Origin: a virus
Strand: one strand, 5' to 3'
DNA length: 34,563 nt
Virus record (IMG/VR): IMGVR_UViG_3300042300_001193
Location: 1-34,563 of that record
Numbering within the stretch: position 1 is the stretch's first letter; each line of letters opens with the position of its first letter. The notes below the pieces were generated by a model. The model ran no database searches. It was not told the DNA's origin and saw only the letters and a list, made by a program, of their open reading frames with translations. Both the position numbers and the translations under genes were made by a program. Below are positions 16,417-25,353 of the stretch, piece after piece.

Positions 16417-16800
16417 ATGAAAAAAGATCGTTTGTTTTGGTATTTTGTATTTTCGTTTCCTGTCTTTGTTTCAATTGCCTTAACTGTTCTGGTCCTTGTA
16501 ATCTTCTCGTCACCTAAAAAGACTGAACCAAACGATCAAAAGTTGTTTGAGTTTGGTAATCCAGAATTCAAACAAAACTATACATCGCACAGGGTATGGG
16601 GCAAATATGAATCTAGTGAGAAAGGCACCAGAAGGACGAATAGTTCTTTGTCCGTATGCTGTAATTCACAAGTATACTGTAGTAGTGAATTTCTAAAAAA
16701 GATTGATGGACTGAACATGTATAAACTACACATATCAGGAAACTTCAATAACATATCAAAAACGATGAACTGTCTCAGAGATATCGATTCTACGTTTTAG
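16417..16800 (+). CDS. Small single-TM protein with cysteine-rich C-terminal domain
   Basis: 127 residues from ATG 16417, chosen because a GGAG site lies seven bases upstream; an in-frame ATG at 16375 would overlap the gp32 hairpin. A strong transmembrane helix spans about residues 5-30 (FWYFVFSFPVFVSIALTVLV). The rest is a soluble domain with four cysteines (VCCNSQVYC ... MNCLRD), probably periplasmic and disulfide-bonded. No family is recognised. Its stop overlaps by four bases the stop of the convergent tail operon, and no terminator separates them. Confidence 0.55.
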   Translation: MKKDRLFWYFVFSFPVFVSIALTVLVLVIFSSPKKTEPNDQKLFEFGNPEFKQNYTSHRVWGKYESSEKGTRRTNSSLSVCCNSQVYCSSEFLKKIDGLNMYKLHISGNFNNISKTMNCLRDIDSTF

Positions 16801-18962
16801 GAAACGGAACTTAATAATGCCTTTTTCTGCAATTCATAAAAATATGGCTCTTCTGGTCTTGGTTTAATATTACCCCTTGGTGGTGTCGAGGCGCCACCAT
16901 TTCCTCCTCCACTCGACATATTATTCATAATAACTGGTGATGATTGTGTGGTTCTTGCATTCATAGAGGTTTGCAATCCTGCATTCTGAGCAGAATTGCT
17001 TGCAAGTGCTCGTGACATAGAGGGTACCGATGGTTCAACGGACATATTTTGAACAGATGGTGACACACTCATTTGACCAATTTGATATTTTTGCCTATAA
17101 GCCTCGGCGGAAGAACTGCCTGCAACGTTAGATAATCTTTGAAGTGCCTGGGCAGGTGTTGCCACTCCTCTAAAATTGGCAGGATTTAAAGCCATATCTC
17201 TGGTCAATTGCAGAGGTGCATTCGGATTTGCTCCATATTGTCTCAATAATGACTTAGCTCCTCCTGCACCTAGGTTGTGTGCAAGATATGCGGCCGTTGC
17301 TTCGTCCGTAAATCCGCTTTCCTTCATCACACCTTGCATAGATTTCAAATTATCTTTATATAATGCGGCTGCCATTTCCGCATTTTTCACAGGGTCCATT
17401 CTTATTTCATTTAAATCTCCACCGAATCCTAATTTTTCTGCATACTGTCTTCCAGTTCCTTTTGTAAACTGAAACAGTCCCATAGCACCGGTTGGACTGA
17501 CCGCACTAGGGTTAAATCCAGATTCGTGTCCCGCCATTGCAATAAAGGCCGCAGGATCTATTCCGTGTTTTTCGGCAACGCCGGTTAGCATTGCTTGCAT
17601 CTCAGGCTCAAGTTTGCCTTTTGTCTTTGGTGCCGGTATCGGCGCAGGAGGTATCATACCGGCAACACCGCCTGATGTTCTGATACTACTGCGACGATTC
17701 ATTACATTAGATCTTGGCATGGGGGCCGGTTGTGGTGCAGGCATTACGTTTGTAGCAGATTCGGATGATACACTAATACCATCGCCTTCTTGTGATACAT
17801 CCCTTGCCGCCAATGCAAGATCTATTCCTACAGATGCTGCGGTTCCAAGACCAGGTATGGTGCTGGCCGCACCGGATGCTATTTCCATTCCGGCTCCAGT
17901 CCAGTCGCCCTCAAAGGCTCTTTGTATTGCAAACAGTCCGCCGGCTATGGCACCCGCTATTGGTATTTTTTTCAATGCAGATTTACCAACATTTTTACCA
18001 ATAACTTTTGGTGCTATTTTTTCAAACGCAGATTTTGCAGACTTTGATATAATTTTTCCAGCACCAGTTTTTGCTATACCTTTTGTGATAGCACTTGTTG
18101 CAACCTTTGCGACACTACTTACCGATTTAGCGGCCTTTGTGGCCACCTTTGCGATTGATTTTACGACCTTCCCACCAGCCAAACCCCCAACTATTGATGT
18201 TATAGCTGAAATGATTTTTTTAATAGATTTTGGAAATAAAGATAACGCCGCAGTTGCTGAACCTATTCCAAATATAAAATCTTTTATTTTACCAAAAAAC
18301 GATTGACTTTGTTCTTGAATTTTATCGGTTTGATCTTCTTTATTTTTAATTTTTTCTTTAAATGCGGAACCTTCTGGTTTTGTGCCAGCTTCTCTTTGAT
18401 CATATAGAAAATCTAAGTATTCTCTTTGTAAGTTATTTGAAATTTGTAGTTGTTTTACAATTTGTTTACCAGTCTCGGTGTCTGCTTGTGCTCCATATGC
18501 ACCCGCTGCATTAACATCGGCAAATACAGGAGGCTTCATTCTTTGTAGATTTACGTCATTTTGATTTTCTGCCCATTCTCTATATTTTTCTCTTCTTTCG
18601 TTTGAGCCTTGTTTTGCCTCCTTATACACTCCGTAGCCGGCGGCCGCCAATGCCATTAATTTTTGAGTATTTGGTCCAAAAGATGCAAGTCCTAGTGCAA
18701 ATGCAGGCGAAATGGACTTTAGTGCACCTCCCATACCTGCTAAGGTTAATTGACCATACGGATTTTTTTGAGATTTTAAATTATTATTTTTAGCTTGATT
18801 TCTTTCTGACATCAAATGGGGCAATACTGTTGATGTGGAGGTTTCGGCATTCTCCTCTCCTTCTACAGTCCACTTGTTTTTGTCAGATCTCTTTAATTCG
18901 ATGGTTTTGGGTCCATCGTGAGTTTGTGCTTTGTAAATTATCGGTGATAAAGAGCCTTCCAT
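16797..18962 (-). CDS. Tape-measure-like tail protein with C-terminal lytic transglycosylase (SLT) domain
   Basis: 721 residues. The N-terminal half is Ala/Gly/Lys-rich with hydrophobic helical segments (residues about 230-300 and 340-400: IAKVATKAAKSVSSVAKVA, GAGMEIASGAASTIPGLGTA), a composition common to tape-measure or DNA-ejection proteins. A Pro-rich linker leads to an SLT domain at about 465-620: MAGHESGFNPSAVSPTG gives the catalytic Glu (E480), GAMGLFQFTKGTG and AAYLAHNLGAGG complete it. The domain would cleave peptidoglycan during DNA entry. T4 instead uses gp5 lysozyme in the needle. Placement after gp26 and a -1-frame ORF fits a tape-measure gene. An alternative is a baseplate-hub lysozyme. 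Confidence 0.7.
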   Translation of the reverse strand: MEGSLSPIIYKAQTHDGPKTIELKRSDKNKWTVEGEENAETSTSTVLPHLMSERNQAKNNNLKSQKNPYGQLTLAGMGGALKSISPAFALGLASFGPNTQKLMALAAAGYGVYKEAKQGSNERREKYREWAENQNDVNLQRMKPPVFADVNAAGAYGAQADTETGKQIVKQLQISNNLQREYLDFLYDQREAGTKPEGSAFKEKIKNKEDQTDKIQEQSQSFFGKIKDFIFGIGSATAALSLFPKSIKKIISAITSIVGGLAGGKVVKSIAKVATKAAKSVSSVAKVATSAITKGIAKTGAGKIISKSAKSAFEKIAPKVIGKNVGKSALKKIPIAGAIAGGLFAIQRAFEGDWTGAGMEIASGAASTIPGLGTAASVGIDLALAARDVSQEGDGISVSSESATNVMPAPQPAPMPRSNVMNRRSSIRTSGGVAGMIPPAPIPAPKTKGKLEPEMQAMLTGVAEKHGIDPAAFIAMAGHESGFNPSAVSPTGAMGLFQFTKGTGRQYAEKLGFGGDLNEIRMDPVKNAEMAAALYKDNLKSMQGVMKESGFTDEATAAYLAHNLGAGGAKSLLRQYGANPNAPLQLTRDMALNPANFRGVATPAQALQRLSNVAGSSSAEAYRQKYQIGQMSVSPSVQNMSVEPSVPSMSRALASNSAQNAGLQTSMNARTTQSSPVIMNNMSSGGGNGGASTPPRGNIKPRPEEPYFYELQKKALLSSVS

Positions 18963-18971
18963 CTTAGTGCC

Positions 18972-19373
18972 TTACTTATTCTTTGAATTTGAATTCCATT
19001 TTTTCTCAAATGCAGAGAATCCTACGTATCCACCGACCACAGATGCCATAACGAAATAAAACCAAGTTATAACTTCTCCTAAAATTTTCAATCTCGATTC
19101 GGGCACGACAAAAAGTGCCCAATAAGTTACAAGCATAATAGAAAATAAAGAAAAATATGCCATTCTTCTTCTATTTCTCCACGTATCACTAATTTCTACA
19201 GAGCTTTCATCAATTTTTGTATCCGTTTTGTCTTCGATATCTTCCTCGAATCTAGGTGCACCCCCTAATGCCACTATTTCTTTATTGTGTGGTTTATTGG
19301 GTTTAAGTCCTTGTCTTTCTATTGCAGATGCAACCAAACCTTTATTTTTTGTTTTAGTGGCTTTATCTTTCAT
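18972..19373 (-). CDS. Two-TM protein of the tail operon, holin-like architecture
   Basis: 133 residues. A 65-residue charged N-terminal region precedes two membrane helices (about residues 72-90, FSLFSIMLVTYWALFVV, and 101-121, ITWFYFVMASVVGGYVGFS) with a short loop. The second helix pattern resembles the last helix of some phage holins, which suggests a membrane-pore or tail-associated membrane protein; a holin would be expected to be expressed late, and this is a late operon. No firm family match. It lies nine bases before the tape-measure-like gene and seven bases after the small ORF. Confidence 0.55.
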   Translation of the reverse strand: MKDKATKTKNKGLVASAIERQGLKPNKPHNKEIVALGGAPRFEEDIEDKTDTKIDESSVEISDTWRNRRRMAYFSLFSIMLVTYWALFVVPESRLKILGEVITWFYFVMASVVGGYVGFSAFEKKWNSNSKNK

Positions 19374-19379
19374 AGAATT

Positions 19380-19559
19380 TTATTTCATAGCTTTCTTTAT
19401 TCTTTCATTTTCTTGTTCTATCCAATCATTTAATAATGCAATGTAGATTTCTCTTTCTAAGGGAATCATTTCTTCGATTTCTCTTAATGAGTATTTATGA
19501 TGCTGAATCATGGAAAAATTATTTTGGTAATGAGAAAATAGTGACTCATGACCCAGCAT
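19380..19559 (-). CDS. 59-residue ORF in the -1 frame after gp26 (candidate tail chaperone T-like segment)
   Basis: Reads from ATG at 19559 down to TAA at 19380-19382. The product (MLGHESLFSHYQNNFSMIQH..., then SLREIEEMIPLEREIYIALL and a lysine-rich end) is mostly helical, with the HHKYSLREIEEMIPLEREIY pattern I recall in T4-like baseplate-module ORFs. It shares one base with the gp26 stop (TAATG), placing it exactly in the -1 frame. It occupies the position of T4 gene 51 but is far shorter. It may be made as a separate protein by coupling, and/or as the end of a gp26 frameshift fusion. Confidence 0.75.
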   Translation of the reverse strand: MLGHESLFSHYQNNFSMIQHHKYSLREIEEMIPLEREIYIALLNDWIEQENERIKKAMK

Positions 19560-20290
19560 TATTCTAAAAAAGATTCTATACCTCTCATTTCATAGTTTCT
19601 TTTGGTTTGACAGGAAGAACACTCCCAAGATACAACGTGCTCAAGTCTTGGTAAATCTTCAAAGAATTTTTCTATTTTATTAAAATCTTTTATTGGTAAA
19701 GACTCTATGAATTTTAATACTTCTTCTTTTGATACCTCCATTGCTTCTATATCATAGACTGTTTGTTCGTCTGATATAGTTTTTATGCACTCCGAGACAA
19801 AATTAAAAACCGATTCAACATCCGGTGAGTTTAATTCTTTAAACTTTGAAATGGTTTCATAGGTGGGGTCTTTCATGCAAACCGTCAGCCCACAATCTAG
19901 TTTTATTTTTTTATTATAATTTTCCGGTATAAAAACTTTTACTGAGTTTAAATTAACTTCTATCGATTTTGATTTTTTGCACTCATCGCAATCTGGTCTG
20001 TCTGTTGGTGATAGATTTAGGGTCAAAATTTCCGATATTGATGCGGCTCTTATGTTTAATAGAATAAACTCCAGATCGTAGAATGCCATTTTGTCTACAT
20101 CTAATTCTGGATGCACTATACAATTTGATACTATTTGTTTTGTTGCTATAATCATTTGATCGACACTTTCTGTCTCTAGCGCCATCAATAATATTTTGTT
20201 TTCCTTTACCGTAAAGGGTCTGATTCTTACTTTTTGTTTTGTAACTGGCAATTCTATTTCATGTACTGGCAATTGTAATTGTTTAAACAT
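19559..20290 (-). CDS. 26: Baseplate hub/tail-assembly protein gp26-like
   Basis: 243 residues from the ATG at 20290; the ATG at 20302 is part of the SD (ATGGAGA). The order of regions fits gp26 of T4-like phages: an N-terminal LPVHEIELPVTKQKVRIRPFTVKENKILLMA, a CDECKKSK motif near the middle, and a C-terminal CSSCQTKRNYEMRGIESFLE with a second CxxC, suggesting zinc binding. gp26 is needed for baseplate hub assembly in T4. The gene is followed in the -1 frame by a small ORF and then by a tape-measure-like gene, as in the G/GT chaperone arrangement of other tailed phages. gp26 alone or gp26 fused to the next ORF (about 303 residues) may be made. Confidence 0.8.
   Translation of the reverse strand: MFKQLQLPVHEIELPVTKQKVRIRPFTVKENKILLMALETESVDQMIIATKQIVSNCIVHPELDVDKMAFYDLEFILLNIRAASISEILTLNLSPTDRPDCDECKKSKSIEVNLNSVKVFIPENYNKKIKLDCGLTVCMKDPTYETISKFKELNSPDVESVFNFVSECIKTISDEQTVYDIEAMEVSKEEVLKFIESLPIKDFNKIEKFFEDLPRLEHVVSWECSSCQTKRNYEMRGIESFLE
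19565..19571 (-). promoter_or_regulatory. Programmed -1 ribosomal frameshift site (T TTT TTA)
   Basis: Reading minus strand, the codons TCT TTT TTA GAA TAA end gp26; the heptamer T TTT TTA (19571 to 19565) is a canonical X XXY YYZ slip site. Minus-one slippage continues as AGA ATA ATG CTG, entering the 59-residue ORF. An imperfect stem (19553-19545 with 19534-19526: GGTCATGAG and CTCATTACC, one mismatch) begins 11 bases downstream. Confidence 0.75.
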
Positions 20291-20316
20291 TGTATTCTCC
20301 ATTCAAATGATTTTAA

Positions 20317-22141: not shown

Positions 22142-23188
22142 ATGCCAGATAACACACAAAGCACACAACAACAAATTGCGGATCTTGTTGCCAGAGCTAG
22201 AGCAAATGGTTCAGAATCTGCAATGCAGGATGCAGTATTCTCACAAATAAGATCTGTTATACCACAGGCTGAATTTGATAAACTGAACCTCACCAATCTA
22301 GAGTCTGCCTTTACTTGGATAGCATCCAACACAGAATCAGGACTAACTGCATTTAGAGAGATGGTCACCGCCGGCGAAAACCTACTAACAATAGGCTTAG
22401 GTTTTGATATTTTCAAATCATCAAACTTGCCGAGAAAGGGCGATGTACAAAAATTTGTTTTTCCTTTTGATTTATTAGATAATGAAGGTTCTAATGGAAC
22501 AAAAAATTCATCGAGAATTGAAATTGATATAATAGGTAATTCTAATAGACCTGAGCTTACGGATACGATAGCACTTTATATGCCACCGGATATTCAAGCT
22601 AGATATAGTGCAAGGTGGCAAGACGATGCGCTAGGTGGGATGGCAGGTGCGGCTACGGAAATAATGGGAGGACTGGGACAAATTTCATCAAACGCCTCAC
22701 AAGGTGCTTCCAATGTCGCCTCTGGCATAAGAGCAATCGATGCTACCGTATTTGGTAATGTTAGACAAAGGGGTAGTAGATCAATAGTAAATCCACACAA
22801 AGCACTATTATATCAATCGCACGATTTTAGAACAATTTCAATAGAATGGCAACTTTTTGCAAGATCTCCCGAAGAAAGTGGAGCAATACATAATTTAATA
22901 AAACGATTAAAAGAAGCATCACATTCAGGAGTAGGAGGCGAAGGGGTTGCACTAGGAACAACATTTGAATATCCTGACGAAATGATTTTAAGATTTTATA
23001 GCACAGGCAAAAGTAATGCATTTATGTTTAACTTTGGTCCTTGTGTTATAACAAACTTGACCGCAAGATATGGTCCGGGTCAGGCCTCATTTTTTATAGG
23101 AACCGGTGCACCTGTTCAAGTTGACTTGAGCATAGAATTCCAAGAAATTTTCATGCTAACAAAAGACCATATAAGGCAGAATTACTAA
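22142..23188 (+). CDS. 48: Baseplate tail-tube cap gp48
   Basis: 348 residues. LYMPPDIQARYSARWQDD, NPHKALLYQSHDFRTISIEWQL, FEYPDEMILRFYSTGK, and GPCVITNLTARYGPG with FIGTGAPVQVDLSIEFQEIFMLTKDHI are the order of motifs in gp48 of T4-like phages, which caps the baseplate and with gp54 starts tube polymerisation. A Gly/Ala/Ser-rich region near residues 160-195 is a hydrophobic helix. The ribosome-binding site is poor. Its stop overlaps the gp53 ATG (TAATG). Confidence 0.82.
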   Translation: MPDNTQSTQQQIADLVARARANGSESAMQDAVFSQIRSVIPQAEFDKLNLTNLESAFTWIASNTESGLTAFREMVTAGENLLTIGLGFDIFKSSNLPRKGDVQKFVFPFDLLDNEGSNGTKNSSRIEIDIIGNSNRPELTDTIALYMPPDIQARYSARWQDDALGGMAGAATEIMGGLGQISSNASQGASNVASGIRAIDATVFGNVRQRGSRSIVNPHKALLYQSHDFRTISIEWQLFARSPEESGAIHNLIKRLKEASHSGVGGEGVALGTTFEYPDEMILRFYSTGKSNAFMFNFGPCVITNLTARYGPGQASFFIGTGAPVQVDLSIEFQEIFMLTKDHIRQNY

Positions 23189-23994
23189 TGAAACATTTTA
23201 AATATTTTCCGACAATAGAATATGATGGTTTAGTAGTTACGGATATATTTCGTAGGGCCGTTTTGCAAGAAAAGCTGAAACAAAATATTACTGGATATAA
23301 TGATGTTAGAATTCCTGAAAATTCCAGACCTGATATTTTGTCCGATCAATATTATGGCGATTCTGAGAATGAATGGTTATTCTTTTATGCCAATGATATG
23401 ATAGATCCAATACATGATTGGCCAATGAATACTAATGAATTCAATTCATATCTTGAGCAAAAATATAACAGTTCAGATCCTAGTAGAATATTTCAAAAAT
23501 TAGGACTACTTAATAACGTGTGGATAGACACTTCTGTCAGTTCAACAATAGTTAATTACCAGATACAAAAAACTACTCCGATAGAAATAAACCAAACGAT
23601 AAAACATCCATTTAGAGATGAATATCGCAAGATTATTTCTGTTGATTTGGCAAATAAAAGGTTTACAATAGAATCGGCGTTTTCTCAACCTTTTCCGTCA
23701 TCGGCATCTCAATTAGAAAGTGCTGATATTTTGACCGATATACATTCTTATTGGCAAGTATTTGAGGAAGTAGATGTGTATAATGAAAAGACTAATTCAA
23801 TTAGTGTTGAAAAAGTTCCTGCCGTATTTCAAGTTGATTATGCTACCTGGTTAAATCTTTCCGAATCAAACAGAACAAAATACAGCTTTTATGAATGGGA
23901 AATATTACAAAATGATATAAAACGTAGAAGAAGGGTGATCGATAAAACGGAAGCAAACACATTGATAAACGATTTGATTAAAATCTTCAAATAA
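23188..23994 (+). CDS. 53: Baseplate wedge protein gp53
   Basis: 268 residues. The N-terminal YFPTIEYDGLVVTDIFRRA, PENSRPDILSDQYYGDSENEWLFFYANDMIDP and HDWPMNTNEFNSYLEQKY define gp53 of the T4 group (in T4 196 residues; this form is longer at the C-terminus, with EWEILQNDIKRRRRVID before the end). gp53 joins baseplate wedges into the hexagonal ring. It follows gp48 in a stop/start overlap and is followed by the hub gene after three bases. Confidence 0.85.
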   Translation: MKHFKYFPTIEYDGLVVTDIFRRAVLQEKLKQNITGYNDVRIPENSRPDILSDQYYGDSENEWLFFYANDMIDPIHDWPMNTNEFNSYLEQKYNSSDPSRIFQKLGLLNNVWIDTSVSSTIVNYQIQKTTPIEINQTIKHPFRDEYRKIISVDLANKRFTIESAFSQPFPSSASQLESADILTDIHSYWQVFEEVDVYNEKTNSISVEKVPAVFQVDYATWLNLSESNRTKYSFYEWEILQNDIKRRRRVIDKTEANTLINDLIKIFK

Positions 23995-23997
23995 ATT

Positions 23998-25353
23998 ATG
24001 GAAAATAATGTAAACGTAAAAGATTACGTACTAAAAGAAATGCGTCTAATTGCATACAACGGACGAGATTATGATATCTCTGCCTTGCGTGGCAATTTAA
24101 TGATCTATGAGGACATTTTCGGTACACCAATGACAGGAGAATTGAGTGTGACGGATGCTATGGATCTGTGTACTCTTTTTCCATTTATCGGCGAAGAAGT
24201 TTTGCGTGTGATATTTACAAAAAGAAATCCTGAGAAACCATCAGAAGAACTTGATCCTATCATACTAGAATTTGACGTTTACAAAGTCACGGGAAGAACA
24301 ATACTTCAAACTAAAGCACAACAATATACATTTCACTTGCTTTCCAGAGAGAGTTGTAATGCATATAAAAATAAAGTGTTCAAGGGATGGAAGCACGTAA
24401 AATATTCTGATATGGTCAAAGATGTATTTAATAACTACATCACCGATACCACAAAACCAGAGCAATCTAGAAAGAAACTAATAGTAGAAGAAACATCAGG
24501 TGAGCATAACTTTTGTATTGGAAATAAAAGTCCATATGAATTGATAAACCTTTTTGCGGCCAGATCAATACCAAGCGGCTCAACGAATGGCAAAGGTCAT
24601 ATGCCACCTTATCTATTCTTTGAAACTAAAACAGATTTTAGATATGTTAGTTTGGATTCTCTATTATTGCAGGAACATACTGAAACGTATGTCAGAAGAA
24701 TTGCTAATATGAGAAATCCTGAAAACTATAGTAAAGAAGTTGAAAAGGATATTAAACGAATTGAGTTTATAGACTGGGTAGGCTGGTACGACACGATGAG
24801 ATTCCTTGATATGGGATTTTATGGCCAAGAATTGATAACGGTCGATTCGGTTTTAAGAAAATTTAACAAATACGATTTCAAAATAAATCGTGATTGGGAT
24901 AGTTTCAACAAGCTGGAACCAGAAAGGGTTATATCGGAAAATAGCCATCTTGCCGATTCTGTGATGGCACATAGAAAATTAATAAGCACAAATTTGGGAA
25001 TAGAATCCTATAATCCAGAAGAACATTCATTAAATTTGGAATCATATGCGCTGAGTAGAACTGCCAAATTGGCTCAAATGTTTTACACGAGATTCGCTAT
25101 GAGTATACCAGGCGATCCTAGACGAAATGTTGGTGAGGTCATCAAAATAGAGCTTCCTGAAGAGGCCGGAGACGTTGACTCGAACAGACCCGAAAAGTAT
25201 AATAGATATTATTATGGCAATTATTTAATAACATCATTAAAGCACCACATATCATTCACAGCATACACGATAGATCTTGAAGTGGCAAGAGATGGATTCT
25301 GGCAAAAAATTGAACACGAAGATCCATTTGAGCGATACAAGGACACTGTTTAA
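23998..25353 (+). CDS. Baseplate hub protein, gp27-like
   Basis: 451 residues (T4 gp27 391). The N-terminal part (DISALRGNLMIYEDIFGTPMTGELSVTDAMDLCTLFPFIGEEVLRVIFT) is a baseplate hub-type first domain, and NKSPYELINLFAARSIPSG with a following domain of strands fits the second. The last 80 residues (MSIPGDPRRNVGEVIKIELPEEAG..YYYGNYLITSLKHHISFTAY) resemble the tube-like hub ring that ends gp27-type proteins. The gene is placed with gp48 and gp53, supporting hub identity; sequence alone is only moderate evidence. Ends 7 bases before a strong early promoter, marking the module boundary. Confidence 0.65.
   Translation: MENNVNVKDYVLKEMRLIAYNGRDYDISALRGNLMIYEDIFGTPMTGELSVTDAMDLCTLFPFIGEEVLRVIFTKRNPEKPSEELDPIILEFDVYKVTGRTILQTKAQQYTFHLLSRESCNAYKNKVFKGWKHVKYSDMVKDVFNNYITDTTKPEQSRKKLIVEETSGEHNFCIGNKSPYELINLFAARSIPSGSTNGKGHMPPYLFFETKTDFRYVSLDSLLLQEHTETYVRRIANMRNPENYSKEVEKDIKRIEFIDWVGWYDTMRFLDMGFYGQELITVDSVLRKFNKYDFKINRDWDSFNKLEPERVISENSHLADSVMAHRKLISTNLGIESYNPEEHSLNLESYALSRTAKLAQMFYTRFAMSIPGDPRRNVGEVIKIELPEEAGDVDSNRPEKYNRYYYGNYLITSLKHHISFTAYTIDLEVARDGFWQKIEHEDPFERYKDTV

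Follow-up and report, generated by a model that had tools for sequence, protein, structure and literature searches.

How a T4-like phage can obtain a short and a long form of its tail chaperone from one gene is the question raised by the gene 26 locus in a 34,563-nucleotide stretch of viral DNA (IMG/VR record IMGVR_UViG_3300042300_001193, positions 1 to 34,563), which we call the window. In the window, gene 26 is followed on the minus strand by a 59-residue open reading frame (ORF), and an initial annotation had proposed that the two are fused by a programmed -1 frameshift resembling that of the lambda G/GT tail chaperones. We are highly confident, from comparison of sequences, that gene 26 encodes a short tail assembly chaperone (TAC-N) and that a programmed -1 frameshift at U UUU UUA would fuse it to gp51 (TAC-C), giving a 303-residue long form (TAC-NC). 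The phage would thus very probably make both chaperone forms from one gene.

The gene 26-gene 51 junction

The Pfam family PF12322 (T4_baseplate) matches gp26 at 156.8 bits (curated cut-off 24.5), over residues 14-246 and profile positions 4-218 of 219. The longest gene 26 ORF starts at an ATG at 20302 (247 residues) and an alternative ATG is found at 20290 (243 residues). The second is the better start because a GGAG lies 6 nucleotides before it, inside the ORF begun at 20302, and the 243-residue protein originally preferred is therefore retained. Read on the minus strand, the gene ends in GAA TCT TTT TTA GAA TAA TG. The slippery heptamer U UUU UUA is in frame, as had been claimed, and is separated from the stop by one codon (GAA) and not by two. 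The -1 frame is open back through the heptamer, and direct reading of the minus strand agrees with the description of the following ORF as lying in that frame, sharing one base with the stop and running without interruption (19380-19559, 59 residues, its own ATG at 19557-19559).

The 59-residue ORF is gp51: it corresponds to phrog_634 (E 2.3e-23), annotated as baseplate hub assembly catalyst. It also matches phrog_150, the profile of the gp26 family, near the C terminus (positions 238-277 of 282), so that this PHROG family appears to include fused gp26-gp51 forms. The predicted fusion has the proposed 303 residues when counted from the ATG at 20290, and 307 from the upstream ATG.

Taken by itself the heptamer is weak evidence, because in-frame heptamers near the ends of ORFs are frequent in the AT-rich window (34% GC). 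The pattern X XXY YYZ occurs in frame at 84 of 7904 codon positions in 29 window ORFs, and six such heptamers, in five of the ORFs, lie no more than five codons from the stop. This background is what speaks for a chance heptamer, or for a single gene split by a sequencing error, and the decision between these explanations and a functional site rests with the relatives of the window.

Conservation of the heptamer

Two large viral-contig scans with patterns placed inside gp26 gave 160 loci, each scan contributing its 80 best out of some 600 confirmed candidates, with some contigs shared. The placement of the patterns made these scans blind to the junction, and the restriction to the best candidates means that the sample leans to cyanophage-like gp26. 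A scan with gp26 of Vibrio nt-1 gave two loci only. A DNA pattern scan for a window-type junction gave 74 contigs, five of which match gp26 within the part retrieved, and these five had already been collected. A gp26 hidden Markov model applied to all scans and to named phages collected 203 loci, of which 199 were readable (L018, L044, L063 and L187 were left out, the junction being too short), representing 166 unique junctions. With T4 (L017) kept apart for contrast, 165 junctions remain, which come from related phages and are thus not independent.

An in-frame T TTT TTN is present in 160 of these 165 junctions, and it is this comparative evidence that supports the proposed frameshift. The last base of the heptamer is C in 139 of the 160, T in 18 and A in three. 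The A of the window replaces Phe by Leu in gp26 and leaves the -1 peptide, FFRI, unchanged. As a control, Phe-Phe dicodons elsewhere in the final 100 codons of these genes were counted, and only 2 of 139 are written T TTT TTY. The conservation of the heptamer rules out chance, which was rejected on this control, and the recurrence of the arrangement in many assemblies and named phages speaks equally against a sequencing error; we regard the probability of either as negligible.

The -1 frame is open for at least 100 nucleotides past the gp26 stop in 162 of the 165 junctions, the +1 frame in none. Two of the three junctions with a shorter -1 opening, L220 and L225, keep the conserved -1 peptide and the third, L191, does not. 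Among named phages, Syn1, Mosig, P-HM2, AS-zj and nt-1 have T TTT TTC at the heptamer site and phiN3 has T TTT TTT; their -1 frame continues as FFR[IV]... into gp51, that of phiN3 as FFYF. The five junctions that lack the heptamer are L191, which is divergent and probably truncated, and L013-L016, which are of the Ackermannviridae type.

Fusion register and start codons

The TAATG overlap in the window raises an alternative, in which translational coupling alone, by re-initiation at UAAUG, makes a separate 59-residue gp51 and no fusion. The overlap itself favours it, and a one-base start/stop overlap is likewise found in the annotations of nt-1, VP-1 and Cygsa01. Across the junctions, an ATG or GTG overlaps the gp26 stop in merely 12 of 160. 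No ATG, GTG or TTG occurs in -1 codons 0-8 from the heptamer in 73 of the 160 (no ATG in 77), and Mosig and P-HM2 have no ATG within the first ten.

A gp51 motif of the [HY]HKYS type stands at -1 codon 23 from the heptamer in 153 of the 160 junctions and at no other offset, seven being unmatched by the pattern. The distance from heptamer to stop departs from the common one in 18 of the 160, the P codon lying -9 to -33 from the stop end. The motif offset is fixed while the gp26 stop moves, and therefore it is the fusion register, not the stop, that is conserved.

Codon conservation was tested on the 153 loci, the seven that failed the strict motif pattern being excluded; most of their peptides look like members of the same family, and that of AS-zj (L011) is more divergent. 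Thirty-seven of the 153 lack ATG, GTG and TTG both in -1 codons 0-17 and in the part of the -1 open stretch that precedes the heptamer. In these 37, -1 codons 5-17 come after the gp26 stop (the spacing is the common one in 35 of the 37), and their conservation at positions 1, 2 and 3 is 0.673, 0.654 and 0.450. Where two start-less loci differ by a single base in a codon, the change is synonymous 56.9% of the time when read in the -1 frame, versus 19.7% and 15.4% in the other frames, the pairs compared being related loci and not independent. What these sequences show is purifying selection on the -1 reading frame in a segment that precedes every usual start codon. Such conservation is predicted by a frameshift and not by re-initiation.

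Re-initiation would also leave unexplained the conserved heptamer and a Shine-Dalgarno (SD) element that mostly lies 7-9 nucleotides before it. In the window the SD is 21 nucleotides from the ATG, too far for initiation by the usual distance rule, and T4 encodes the fused form as a single protein. As the sole explanation re-initiation was rejected on the start-codon census, and we consider it unlikely.

The GenBank records of Syn1, Mosig and P-HM2 begin gp51 at internal codons, and those of AS-zj and ACG-2014d do not annotate it. With gp51 annotated short or missing in these five phage records, public records understate or miss TAC-C.

An upstream Shine-Dalgarno-like element

Pairing with the anti-SD sequence peaks in 8-mers beginning 13-18 nucleotides 5' of the heptamer, with a mean of -6.76 kcal/mol at -15 versus a background of +0.28; these energies assume the canonical anti-SD, which may not be that of the window's host. 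At the peak 89% of 8-mers reach -4 kcal/mol or lower, versus 3.3% in the background, and the last paired base is 7-9 nucleotides from the heptamer in 144 of the 160 junctions.

The encoded residues are themselves conserved, Glu-Gly occupying the site in 135 of 160. When the peptide of the SD site was recoded synonymously 30 times with the codon usage of the same genes, the recoded mean was -5.23 kcal/mol (standard deviation 0.14) versus an actual mean of -6.80, and the ratio of GAG to GAA is 96:40 at the site versus 462:1091 elsewhere. The signal therefore comes partly from conserved residues and partly from codon choice, and at the level of sequence the element goes beyond what synonymous recoding gives. 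The mean energy is -6.13 kcal/mol in the 41 loci without start codons versus -7.03 in the 119 with them. Since the element is kept in start-less loci, it is not solely an initiation site for gp51.

The position of this element is also relevant to a further alternative, transcriptional slippage at the six consecutive T, which would give mixed mRNAs, some of them read in the -1 frame. The run is present, and 18 of the 160 heptamers are T TTT TTT, as slippage would favour; 139 end in C, and the constant position of a ribosomal element implicates the ribosome. The bacterial cases described in Atkins et al. 2016 concern runs of 9 A or T. We rejected slippage by the argument that the T run is short, and hold it to be very improbable.

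Predicted RNA structure downstream of the heptamer

The initial annotation placed a stem 11 bases downstream. A hairpin is indeed predicted, its first pair lying 5 nucleotides after the heptamer and 12 after the heptamer's first base. In the window its z-score is -2.72, with 1 of 200 shuffles as stable. Over 159 junctions, the 75 nucleotides 3' of the heptamer have a mean z of -1.71 versus -0.23 and -0.10 in the two control stretches, both of which lay upstream. The share below z -2 is 40% downstream versus 7% and 6% in these controls.

The T4 contrast

A PF12322 search of 11 records gave a pair of genes for T4 and a single gene for every one of the 10 records that carry the heptamer. The 10 include a 156,877-base contig with a gp26 98% identical to that of the window, and four of them are IMG/VR records that may be incomplete. 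The window, a 34.5-kb fragment, has one gp26 match. In T4, gp26 and gp51 both match PF12322 over its full length, and gp51 adds the C-terminal gp51 tail. Full-length gp51 of the T4 type has matches at 80% query coverage or more in 1334 phage records.

T4 gene 26 (L017:3803-4429) reads AGA GGC CTC AAA GAG TTC TTT GAG, with AGAGG present and the heptamer absent. The AGAGG may be a relic, or just a conserved Arg-Gly. The -1 frame after T4 gene 26 is also open, but into another protein, that of gene 25.

Fold of gp26

An AlphaFold model of gp26 based on 41 sequences has a mean predicted local distance difference test score (pLDDT) of 88.2. In VIA-align its best rows are 3fgx, with Z 8.8 (root-mean-square deviation 3.6, 86 residues aligned), 2ob9, the tail assembly chaperone of HK97, with Z 8.1 (5.2, 88 aligned), and YqbN, 3klu, with Z 6.8 (5.2, 89 aligned). 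All three alignments are confined to gp26 residues 1-98. Of these structures 2ob9 alone is named a tail assembly chaperone in the alignment, and 3fgx and 3klu are presumably tail assembly chaperones as well. With E 0.001 as the upper limit, Foldseek matched the model to nothing in the PDB. A sequence search of the PDB with a profile built from 50 gp26 proteins yielded no convincing relative, the best match being a splicing helicase at E 0.032. The model supports a tail assembly chaperone fold and falls short of proof, because Z values near 8 are borderline and Foldseek was without a match at that limit.

Neighbouring genes

The features of the junction and of the genes that follow it are collected in Table 1. 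In minus-strand order, the cluster comprises a gp4-like head closure gene, a gp2-like DNA end protector gene, a tail tube gene called gp54-like by position alone, gp26, gp51, the 133-residue ORF and the 721-residue SLT gene. The SLT transglycosylase domain of the last lies at residues 463-578 and is accompanied by glycine-alanine-rich stretches; among its phrog matches are phrog_3201, a tail fiber protein, and phrog_2013, a lytic tail protein. The next large gene had been said to resemble a tape measure. A large SLT-domain gene is there, preceded by the intervening 133-residue ORF, and its product is possibly a tape measure or a tail lysozyme. On the plus strand, gp48-like, gp53-like and tail protein genes at 22142-25353 adjoin the gp26 cluster, the T4-like tail and baseplate genes of the window being divergent and on both strands.

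Table 1. Junction features and downstream genes on the minus strand of the window
Feature	Positions	Strand	Details
gp26, predicted short tail assembly chaperone (TAC-N)	19559..20290	-	243 residues; Pfam PF12322 E 8.6e-46; phrog_150 E 5.4e-51
SD-like AGAGG, internal	19581..19585	-	9 nucleotides 5' of heptamer; anti-SD energy -7.1 kcal/mol
Slippery heptamer T TTT TTA	19565..19571	-	gp26 frame
gp26 stop TAA	19559..19561	-	one-base overlap with ATG of -1 ORF (TAATG)
-1 frame segment after the predicted shift (RIML...AMK), gp51/TAC-C	19380..19565	-	phrog_634 E 2.3e-23
Predicted RNA stem-loop	19500..19559	-	begins 5 nucleotides 3' of heptamer; -18.4 kcal/mol
133-residue protein, two hydrophobic segments	18972..19373	-	between gp51 and the large gene; weak matches to phrogs of unknown function
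721-residue SLT-domain protein, candidate tape measure or tail lytic protein (role inferred)	16797..18962	-	PF01464 E 1.1e-18

Discussion

The sequences show the architecture of the junction and its conservation; that frameshifting occurs in this phage, its efficiency, the action of the stem-loop and the chaperone role of the products are matters that we infer. The mechanism that we propose is one in which AGAGG pairing with the anti-SD, the heptamer U UUU UUA and the stem-loop would together make a minority of ribosomes slip back by one base. The slipped ribosomes would pass the UAA and decode 61 further codons of gp51 (TAC-C), to produce the 303-residue TAC-NC. On the model of lambda G/GT, the tape measure protein would be coated with abundant TAC-N and a little TAC-NC, and the two forms would bring in the subunits of the tail tube.

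Beyond the relatedness of the loci and of the codon pairs, and the use of a canonical anti-SD, several points weigh against this reading. The ATG that overlaps the gp26 stop in the window makes a separate gp51 also conceivable. In E. coli, according to Atkins et al. 2016, U_UUU_UUA shifts less than A_AAA_AAG. No consensus RNA structure is shared by the largest cluster of junctions (82), and the smaller clusters (14, 7 and 7) have weak or mixed helices; covariation in the window hairpin amounts to one double change in two sequences, no better than shuffles (249 of 500). The candidate tape measure has no match to a tape-measure family in Pfam and PHROG family searches. Finally, L013-L016 (ECML-4, VP-1, K493 and Cygsa01, the first two of which are classed as Ackermannviridae) keep the -1 ORF without the heptamer. 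The initial annotation had named this combination as one that would count against it; the conservation that it looked for is found in 160 of 165 junctions and fails in this group. Past the stop the four have similar -1 peptides (e.g. HLMFELDL, HLIFEIDL) and no consistently placed SD, and in ECML-4 the surroundings of the junction are free of ATG, GTG and TTG. Their long form may arise by slippage of a single codon, at T TTC or GTT TTT.

Frameshifting is reportedly conserved in several groups of T4-like phages, T4 itself being said to use genes 26 and 51. The initial annotation was unsure whether such a frameshift had been reported for the T4 group. In essence it had, and the core of our finding is already in print, insofar as citing papers convey the work of Vladimirov, Gautam and Davidson 2022 (Virology 566:9-15): as cited in PMC12846349, Vladimirov et al. 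2022 described poly-T slippery sequences in the TAC-N genes of T4-like phages, and as cited in PRFect (2024), T4-like phages in which a short gene is accompanied by a longer, fused one. An older statement, in Atkins et al. 2016, which treats the lambda G-GT system, was that G-T frameshifting is conserved 'except T4'. The SD-like element, the identity of gp51 and this literature were absent from the initial annotation. We found no description of an SD-like element in T4-like tail chaperone genes in the literature searched, outside which most subscription papers lay, and claim no novelty for it; the literature on frameshifting in cyanophages likewise yielded none.

The analysis extends to many T4-like phages from the environment a strategy already known for fixing the proportion of the two forms of the tail chaperone. 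The upstream SD-like element offers a specific, testable prediction on the tuning of frameshift efficiency. The occurrence of one gene with a frameshift in some phages and two genes without one in others is a natural contrast, suited to testing why the ratio matters. We lean, with reservations, towards a broader picture in which, outside the T4 group, a dnaX-like three-part signal would set the ratio of TAC-N to TAC-NC, and in which the T4 lineage would have replaced the signal by gene duplication, with AGAGG left behind and the heptamer decayed, if the direction of change is as we suppose. In the window clade, re-initiation at UAAUG could add free TAC-C.

The system in the window is best placed by comparison with those already known. 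It shares with lambda gpG/gpGT a long form, predicted in the window, that is a C-terminal extension of the short one, and differs in its slippery sequence, which in lambda is G GGA AAG. Of the solved folds, that of the HK97 chaperone is one of the closest; gp26 is more than twice the length of the HK97 chain and matches it only over residues 1-89. With E. coli dnaX the junction shares an upstream SD-like element and a slippery heptamer, and the stem-loop that follows the heptamer in dnaX has a predicted counterpart in the window; the heptamer of dnaX is A-rich and that of the window U-rich, and the shift in the window lengthens the protein rather than shortening it. The T4-like chaperone genes 26 and 51 likewise provide short and long chaperone forms, the window, a fragment from an uncultured phage, having its own U UUU UUA where U UUU UUC is usual. 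T4 itself has PF12322 proteins in common with the window, and encodes them as two genes with no heptamer.
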